This document shows, in pieces, positions 13,689 through 24,886 of a stretch of 64,000 bases of DNA. The position numbers and the translations under genes were made by a program. The stretch spans positions 1 to 64,000 of the IMG/VR virus record IMGVR_UViG_3300020421_001669; one strand, given 5' to 3'. This stretch comes from a virus. The notes below the pieces were generated by a model. That model saw only the letters and a program-made list of their open reading frames with translations, was not told where the DNA came from and ran no database searches. Position 1 is the stretch's first letter; every line of letters starts with the position of its first letter.

Positions 13689-14348
13689 ATGTTTACACAT
13701 ATTGACAAAAAGCACGATTTCCCCCAGTTAATGAGGGAGAATTTTGAAGGAAAACGGACATATGTAACGGAAAATGGTGATAGATACCCTTCTATCACCA
13801 CCGTTCTTGGATATAAGATAAAACCAGCCATAAAAGCATGGAGAAAGAAGGTAGGAGAACAGGCAGCGAACAAAATATCGCGTCAATCGTCTGTTCGAGG
13901 AACCAAAATTCATGGTATTTGTGAGGATTATCTTAATAACAAGGAACTTGATACTAAAATGTTGTCCTTTGTAGAGGAAGACATGTTCGATAACATGCGC
14001 CTTTACCTTGATAAGATAGATAACATACACGCGATTGAACAATTTTTGTACAGCGACCATCTAAGACTTGCTGGTCAGGCTGATTGCATCGCTGAATTTG
14101 AGGGAAAATTGTCAATCATCGACTTTAAGACATCCGCAAAACTCAAAAAGAAGTCATATATCAAGAATTATTTCGCTCAATGTGCTGGTTATGCCATCAT
14201 GTTTGAGGAAAGAACTGGTATTCCAATAGACCAAAGTGTAATTATTATAGGTGTACAAGACGAAGAACCACAACTTTTTGTAGAACATCGTGACAATTAC
14301 ACAGATTACCTACTAGAATGTAGAGATTTGTATGAAAATAACGCTTGA
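13689..14348 (+). CDS. PD-(D/E)XK nuclease (RecB/Cas4-like)
   Basis: A 219-residue nuclease of the PD-(D/E)XK superfamily. The core is LAGQADCIAEFEG followed by IIDFKTSAK, which supplies the metal-binding Asp residues and the catalytic Lys, and a downstream QCAGYA helix is typical of RecB-like exonucleases. The N-terminal part (YPSITTVLG) resembles phage exonucleases of T4-like marine viruses. It is likely to work in DNA replication, recombination or host DNA breakdown. It has its own promoter and its stop overlaps the -35 box of the tmRNA promoter. Confidence 0.8.
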   Translation: MFTHIDKKHDFPQLMRENFEGKRTYVTENGDRYPSITTVLGYKIKPAIKAWRKKVGEQAANKISRQSSVRGTKIHGICEDYLNNKELDTKMLSFVEEDMFDNMRLYLDKIDNIHAIEQFLYSDHLRLAGQADCIAEFEGKLSIIDFKTSAKLKKKSYIKNYFAQCAGYAIMFEERTGIPIDQSVIIIGVQDEEPQLFVEHRDNYTDYLLECRDLYENNA

Positions 14349-14378
14349 CATTTGGTTGGTAAGCTGGTATTATAAATA
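14345..14378 (+). promoter_or_regulatory. tmRNA promoter, sigma-70-like overlapping a late-type motif
   Basis: TTGACA (14345-14350) and TATTAT (14368-14373) are 17 bases apart. The -10 box runs into TATAAATA (14371-14378), which matches the T4-type late promoter motif. If both are used, the tmRNA would be made early from the host-type promoter and late from the phage-type one. The first is well supported by spacing and match; the second may be a coincidence. Confidence 0.7.
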
Positions 14379-14379
14379 A

Positions 14380-14645
14380 ATTAACTCGTTGAAACAAGTC
14401 AAACGGTTAACAGGACGAGGGTGCAAATCCCTCCGCCTCCACCAATTAATCCTTATAGACTCGACTAAGGGGGCGAATAGGATCGACTGGGACTTATTAG
14501 AGGAGTGGAGAGTTCGGAAATGGAGCTGCCGTAAGTGCGACAAAACTATAAACGCAGAAGAAGATACTGCTTATGAGGATTACGCTTTAGCGGCGTAAAA
14601 TCGCTCGGGGTTCGGGGACGCCTATCAACAGAAGTCCCCATTTTT
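14380..14645 (+). ncRNA. ssrA: Circularly permuted (two-piece) tmRNA
   Basis: Gene order is acceptor piece, spacer, coding piece. The acceptor piece has a T-arm (GAGGG/CCCTC at 14417-14433, loop TGCAAAT) followed by CGCCTCC and an encoded ACCA at 14441-14444. After a 24-base spacer (14445-14468) the coding piece starts GGGGGCG (14469-14475), which pairs with CGCCTCC over 7 bp including G3-U70, the alanine identity pair. GACTT (14491) can pair with AAGTC (14396) to start helix P2. The resume codon GCA at 14554 follows TATAAAC and encodes AEEDTAYEDYALAA, then TAA at 14596-14598. A GGGGAC/GTCCCC hairpin and T run close the gene. tmRNA rescues stalled ribosomes and tags the product for proteolysis. 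The T-loop has G where TTC is usual. Exact ends are estimates. Confidence 0.93.
14614..14645 (+). terminator. Hairpin and T run at the end of the tmRNA gene
   Basis: GGGGAC (14614-14619) and GTCCCC (14634-14639) form a 6-bp G/C-rich stem with a 14-base loop, followed by A and five T. It fits a rho-independent terminator, though the same stem could be a structural element of the coding piece of the tmRNA. Confidence 0.6.
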
Positions 14646-14670: not shown

Positions 14671-14781
14671 ATGTGGTTAATTACAGGACTCATTATCGGA
14701 GTCGTAGTTGGAGCATGGATTAAAGACCGAAAATCTTGGTTAGATTTTCTTGACTCACCATTTGATAAGCTGCCGTTTTAA
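14671..14781 (+). CDS. 36-residue single-pass membrane protein
   Basis: A short gene with a strong ribosome site (GGAGGAAGAT directly before ATG 14671). The product has one hydrophobic segment at residues 2-17 (LITGLIIGVVVGAW) followed by a charged, tryptophan-containing tail. It lies between the tmRNA and an exported cell-wall hydrolase gene, so a lysis role (holin-like or spanin-like) is possible, but it is smaller than usual holins. I do not recognise a family; the case for a real gene rests on the ribosome site and the clean membrane segment. Confidence 0.6.
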   Translation: MWLITGLIIGVVVGAWIKDRKSWLDFLDSPFDKLPF

Positions 14782-14798
14782 CAAACTAACACTTTCAA

Positions 14799-15353
14799 AT
14801 GTACAGTTGGTTTTTGACCGCCGTATGTGCTGTATCACTTTGTTTGATACCAGTACAAAATGCGAATGACTACTTCATCGAAGAAGACAGGGTTTTAGTT
14901 GTTGACGAAGCAATAATCTTTATCGATAAAGAAATATCTTGTCTTGCAGTTAACATTTATCATGAAGCAAGGGGCGAAAGCAAAGAAGGTAAACTTGCAG
15001 TTGCTTTCGTAACCTTGAATCGTGTTAAAAGTAATGCATATCCAGACACAGTTTGTGGCGTTGTTTATCAAGGATACCACAAACCGTCTTGGAGAGATGA
15101 AACAAAAATGGTTCCAATCAGGCATCGTTGTCAGTTTAGTTGGTACTGTGATGGTAAACCCGACATAGTACGCGATTTCAACATATACGAAGAAATCATT
15201 AAACTGTCAATAGATGTTTGGGAAGATAGGTATGAAGATAATACAAATGGAAGTTTGTTTTATCATGCCGATTATGTGGAACCGACATGGGCGCAACACA
15301 TGGCGAAAACAGTAAAGATAGATAGACATATATTCTATACCGCGAGTTATTAA
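14799..15353 (+). CDS. SleB-family cell-wall hydrolase with signal sequence (endolysin candidate)
   Basis: A 184-residue protein. Residues 1-23 form a signal peptide or signal anchor (WFLTAVCAVSLCLIPV). The rest is a Hydrolase_2/SleB domain: CLAVNIYHEARGE, with the conserved catalytic Glu region, then VTLNRV, CQFSWYCDG and FYHADYVEPTWA. SleB enzymes are lytic transglycosylases that cut peptidoglycan. A secretory signal on a phage lysin fits export by the host Sec pathway before lysis. Ribosome site before the ATG is weak. Its stop shares bases with the next start (TAATG). Confidence 0.8.
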   Translation: MYSWFLTAVCAVSLCLIPVQNANDYFIEEDRVLVVDEAIIFIDKEISCLAVNIYHEARGESKEGKLAVAFVTLNRVKSNAYPDTVCGVVYQGYHKPSWRDETKMVPIRHRCQFSWYCDGKPDIVRDFNIYEEIIKLSIDVWEDRYEDNTNGSLFYHADYVEPTWAQHMAKTVKIDRHIFYTASY

Positions 15354-24849: not shown

Positions 24850-24886
24850 TATAAATAGTCCAATAAAATCATAAATACTATTTATT
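24850..24886. promoter_or_regulatory. Divergent late-promoter region between gp4 and gp48
   Basis: The 51-base gap holds TATAAATA (24850-24857) and CATAAATA (24870-24877) on plus, exactly 20 bases apart, and AATAAATA on minus (24886 to 24879). The plus copy at 24870 is 21 bases before the gp48 ATG with GGAG between. Motifs match the NATAAATA late consensus of T4-like marine phages, so both operons may fire back to back late in infection. Confidence 0.55.

Follow-up and report, generated by a model that had tools for sequence, protein, structure and literature searches.

A circularly permuted tmRNA gene with an acidic tag in a lineage of T4-like marine phages

Why would a lytic phage bear the cost of its own tmRNA, and does an altered tag change the fate of the stalled proteins that receive it? 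Both questions are raised by a locus in IMG/VR record IMGVR_UViG_3300020421_001669, of which we analyzed positions 1 to 64,000 (the window, a stretch of 64,000 nucleotides). The whole record comprises 161,406 bases with a single tmRNA and, because it holds gp32 and tail proteins, is assigned to a T4-like phage. Two-piece ssrA is already known from the phages Melnitz and Mosig, and 53 of 133 distinct phage tmRNA structures are two-piece (PMC9004378). For Melnitz and Mosig it was proposed that the RNA sustains the translation machinery or tags host proteins (PMC9004378), hence the general idea is not new. The merged Rfam model, together with 79 tmRNAs of bacteriophages, is likewise published (PMC11915505). 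In the literature that we searched, no experimental test of a phage-borne two-piece tmRNA was found. New in this analysis are the AE(E/D/N)(D/N) tag start, the most acidic viral tag and, in relatives, spacer genes under coding selection.

A full-length circularly permuted tmRNA gene is located at 14341-14642 (+). The Rfam covariance model RF01849 (alpha_tmRNA) matches this interval over model positions 1-355 with 95.4 bits (E 1e-24), and RF04321 (tmRNA_permuted) matches 14383-14598 (+) over model positions 1-213 with 103.2 bits (E 5e-19). Both matches exceed the gathering scores (50 bits for RF01849 and 47 bits for RF04321), and by model score the gene is a permuted tmRNA of the alphaproteobacterial type. 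A phage-encoded, circularly permuted tmRNA had been proposed here from the bare letters (the sequence-only reading), and the two covariance models, with a significant alpha_tmRNA match, and the T4-like contig bear this out. At 103 bits, the window tmRNA scores below most of the sampled bacterial tmRNAs (about 140-167 bits for those listed). ARAGORN called no tmRNA in the window; it called a permuted tmRNA in 17 near relatives (L127-L143) and, overall, 181 of 257 viral tmRNA loci. Because these 17 close relatives are called, we regard the miss of the window copy as a false negative. As ARAGORN misses some viral permuted tmRNAs, surveys that use ARAGORN only undercount them.

Structure, pairing and conservation of the gene can be observed directly in the window and its relatives. 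The acceptor piece lies upstream, followed by the spacer and then the coding piece (Table 1), and CGCCTCC and GGGGGCG form an acceptor stem of 7 bp including G3-U70. All the parts named in the sequence-only reading (acceptor piece, T-arm, CCA, 24-base spacer, GGGGGCG start, G3-U70 and the ALAA end of the tag) are in place. In all 14 aligned sequences the acceptor and T-stem pairs are unbroken and the G-U is kept, and compensatory changes among these relatives are seen in the T-stem (A-U to G-C), P2d (U-A to G-C) and P2b (G-C to A-U). Helix 2, which joins both pieces, has P2a, P2b and P2d paired, and its middle pairing was not made out in the 14 sequences. The CGG/CCG stem in the pseudoknot 1 region, before the tag, is invariant in the same alignment; a second pairing of pseudoknot 1 was sought in the window copy and none was made out. 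The 3' hairpin is retained with other sequence in different members (GGGGAC/GTCCCC versus GGACAGT/ACTGTCC). The single-strand folding energy of the window tmRNA is unremarkable (z -0.6, with pseudoknots outside the folding model), which is expected because the RNA is pseudoknotted and in two pieces. Like the Caulobacter-type RNA of RF01849, the window RNA has the permuted order, the G3-U70 acceptor, the encoded CCA, the ALAA tag end and the 3' hairpin. It differs in having a shorter 3' tail, one base fewer after GGGGGCG, a diverged middle of helix 2 and AEED in place of ANDN.

Table 1 Features of the tmRNA locus and its neighbors, in window coordinates.
Feature	Position	Strand	Remarks
PD-(D/E)XK exonuclease gene (phrog_298)	13689..14348	+	conserved upstream neighbor of the tmRNA
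Sigma-70-type promoter-like TTGACA-17-TATTAT, TG before -10	14345..14373	+	overlaps the exonuclease stop codon; putative function
TATAAATA, matches T4 late-promoter core	14371..14378	+	overlaps the -10 box; conserved; putative late use
Acceptor piece	14382..14444	+	helix 2 5' strand, T-arm, acceptor 3' strand, discriminator A, CCA; 5' end approximate
T-arm	14417-14433	+	within the acceptor piece
Acceptor 3' strand CGCCTCC	14434-14440	+	pairs with GGGGGCG
Encoded CCA	14442-14444	+	end of the acceptor piece
Spacer, 24 nt	14445..14468	+	expected to be processed out
Coding piece	14469..14642	+	acceptor 5' strand, helix 2, CGG/CCG stem, tag frame, stop stem, 3' hairpin; 3' end per RF01849
Acceptor 5' strand GGGGGCG	14469-14475	+	opens the coding piece
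Tag frame, GCA resume codon, AEEDTAYEDYALAA, stop TAA	14554..14598	+	codons GCA..GCG 14554-14595, TAA 14596-14598
Stem spanning the stop codon	14589-14605	+	in the coding piece
3' hairpin	14614-14639	+	in the coding piece
36-aa ORF, one membrane span, with Shine-Dalgarno sequence	14671..14781	+	directly downstream of the tmRNA
Cell-wall hydrolase/endolysin-like gene (PF07486)	14799..15353	+	conserved downstream neighbor

The position of the gene is conserved as well. In 29 of 29 IMG/VR contigs with a related exonuclease (at least 75% identical, our close-relative set), a permuted tmRNA directly follows the exonuclease, behind a conserved promoter-like TTGACA-17-TATTAT/TATAAATA sequence. PhoH is also among the upstream neighbors, and the 36-aa membrane ORF downstream has no family match in Pfam or PHROGs. 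TTGACA-17-TATTAT agrees with the consensus at 11 of 12 bases and is kept in sequence and spacing in relatives, which supports the earlier suggestion that the tmRNA has its own promoter. The late-promoter-like TATAAATA overlaps the -10 box in the window; in L128 and L132-L134, TATAAT and TATAAATA are separated, and therefore both seem to be kept. Within the window, TATAAATA occurs in 14 copies against 7.4 expected, and 3 of the 13 plus-strand copies lie 15-75 nt upstream of genes, zones that make up 4% of the bases. From these motifs, the tmRNA may be expressed both early and late. No intrinsic terminator was found 3' of the tmRNA. Separately, TATAAATAGT recurs at window positions 24850, 31225, 39374, 46776, 56611 and 58703 and is probably the late promoter core of the phage.

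Comparable loci differ in their details. A sister lineage (L144-L151) occupies the same slot between exonuclease and cell-wall hydrolase, with similar promoter elements; unlike the window, it has 10-residue tags (ANDDVYxLAA) and a different coding-piece lineage, possibly a tmRNA replacement. Melnitz and Mosig also have permuted tmRNAs of the alphaproteobacterial type in T4-like marine phages, and in Mosig, as in the window, the tmRNA is found shortly downstream of a PD-(D/E)XK nuclease gene. However, Mosig has the tag GEDNFALAA, a 44-nt spacer and a late-transcription accessory gene downstream, where the window has the membrane ORF and the hydrolase. A glutamine riboswitch is present in both Melnitz and Mosig, whereas none above the Rfam cut-off is seen in the window.

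The window tag, AEEDTAYEDYALAA, has a charge of -5, the lowest among 125 distinct viral tags. Its 14 residues are the commonest viral length (60 of 125 distinct tags), a length found just once among the 28 host tags sampled, which come from a class-wide covariance search and do not represent the proven host of the phage; the tag is thus longer and acidic, as previously described. A pattern scan of bacterial genomes gave matches mostly in Methylobacterium and Rhizobiales, and an order-level search aimed at SAR11 matched small-genome bacteria instead. An ANDN start is found in 84 of the 125 viral and 25 of the 28 sampled host tags but in 0 of 6 listed variants of the window clade, which begin with AE(E/D/N)(D/N) (AEED, AENN or AEDN) and keep the LAA end. 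Elsewhere among the phage tmRNAs, the resume codon is apparently Gly, not Ala, in L002, L018, L028, L063 and L115 (GEDNFALAA in Mosig, GNSNFALAA, GNENFALAA), and L095, L096, L104 and L109 have very long viral tags, with 24-31 residues (for example, ANDNALSNVTFVDFSAPVTAVNEDFALAA).

Selection acts on the viral tags as a set. Across 75 distinct viral 14-codon tag DNAs, the synonymous fraction is 0.45, compared with 0.17 after column shuffling. It reaches 0.70 in the last five codons (0.19 shuffled) and 0.28 in the first nine (0.16 shuffled), where selection is weaker. Protein-level selection on the 3' half of viral tags argues that the tag end is used as protein; restricted to the window clade, the test does not reach significance (p 0.08).

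The N-terminal half of the tag matters for contact with SspB in the Caulobacter and E. coli systems. A functional RNA whose AEED/AENN/AEDN start loses this contact, or shifts the choice of protease relative to host tagging, would agree with the absent ANDN start and the extreme charge at a retained LAA end. However, given the weaker selection on the first nine codons, the change of the tag start may be drift, and we consider such re-targeting possible but doubtful.

The tag also bears on whether the RNA could act as a decoy, reducing trans-translation in the host by drawing SmpB or AlaRS away from host tmRNA. An inhibitory form consisting of the tRNA domain only has been suggested to do this in mycobacteriophage DS6A (PMC4131195, PMC11915505), and the 161-kb record yielded no SmpB gene. 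The DS6A-type RNA has no tag frame, whereas the window tmRNA does, and viral tmRNAs keep tag frame, stop codon and LAA end under protein-level selection. A tag is needless for a decoy and yet it is kept, which makes this role improbable; the same selection argues for a working tag over either a decoy or a relic.

A tree built from 265 tmRNAs places the window clade inside a 125-member clade without any sampled host sequence; the host sample (used for both tree and tags) is small, partly picked for its model scores and without demonstrated SAR11 members. A blastn search against 385 alphaproteobacterial genomes, run without a positive control, gave no close match to the window tmRNA. With a virus-only clade and no close genome match, a recent host fragment looks unlikely. 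Temperate phages commonly integrate at ssrA (PMC9004378), but a host ssrA relic or an integration-site copy from imprecise excision is very improbable for a complete gene with its own promoter-like sequence and compensatory base changes, in a T4-like genome, in the same place in each of the 29 close relatives and in a virus-only clade far from sampled hosts; no integrase with attachment half-sites at the tmRNA gene ends was seen adjoining the gene.

The window gene is, with high probability, a working two-piece tmRNA of the alphaproteobacterial type that belongs to a virus-borne lineage of T4-like marine phages, has its own promoter and serves ordinary ribosome rescue. For its transcription, processing, charging, SmpB use and benefit to the phage, we infer the following course. 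The tmRNA would be transcribed from its own promoter, and host RNases would excise the spacer; the resulting acceptor and coding RNAs would stay joined through the acceptor stem and helix 2. Charging would fall to host AlaRS, via G3-U70, and host SmpB would bring the RNA to ribosomes stalled on broken mRNA. Such stalled ribosomes are common when host nucleic acids are being degraded by a T4-like phage. Because no SmpB was found in the record, this protein, AlaRS and the RNases must be borrowed from the host. The stalled chain would then receive AEEDTAYEDYALAA, whose LAA end should direct it to ClpXP, and the freed ribosome would return to phage translation.

In sister phages (L138-L143) the spacer between CCA and coding piece is 120 nt long (L138 locus 989-1347) and contains AAAGGAG-ATG followed by a 34-codon ORF with a single membrane span, MVNGAGKWMLRMYILWSIIADITLVSGIIYLVFF or close variants. 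With just 24 nt, the spacer of the window tmRNA is too short for such a nested ORF. Scanning for long spacers gave at least 120 viral stretches, most of which pass a check for acceptor and T-arm. Among the matches listed, 16 of 109 distinct long viral spacers combine a Shine-Dalgarno sequence with an ORF of 20 codons or more, whereas 200 shuffles gave 3.7 on average and 8 at most; because relatives occur among the 16, they are not a count of independent cases. In five spacer-ORF families there is synonymous bias in the ORF frame, with a shuffle p of <0.001 in three, 0.003 in one and 0.02 in the sister family of the window (L138-L143), and no such bias in the other reading frames. Besides this sister family, at least four unrelated families with in-frame synonymous bias occur among the viral contigs L271-L388, for example MDEV.. 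(L277, L309, L326, L352), VTYL.. (L306, L310, L336), MFDRLTEFF.. (L302, L317, L323) and MD.. IYL.. (L282, L334, L345). The sampled host spacers are all at most 48 nt (50 loci). Three alphaproteobacterial long spacers chosen for their length (L411, L412, L413) are hairpin- or palindrome-rich on inspection and not coding-like. The nested ORFs have no credible match in Pfam or PHROGs, and three of them, compared with sequenced phage records, gave no match. Our literature search found no report of protein genes nested in tmRNA spacers, an absence that is not proof. The sequence-only reading mentions neither these genes nor the L144-L151 lineage nor the TATAAATA at the -10 box.

It is tempting to join the two peculiarities of this T4-like marine phage lineage. 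The tag start might have been rewritten so that tagged proteins bypass or alter the host adaptor route of proteolysis, and in sister phages the spacer might house very small protein genes whose products are made from the precursor and released by processing. We regard this combined account as speculative and rather unlikely.

The window gene adds a clear and conserved case to phage-borne ribosome rescue. If confirmed, the nested spacer genes of its relatives would represent an unusual case of a protein gene nested within the gene for a non-coding RNA, in the very part that is excised.
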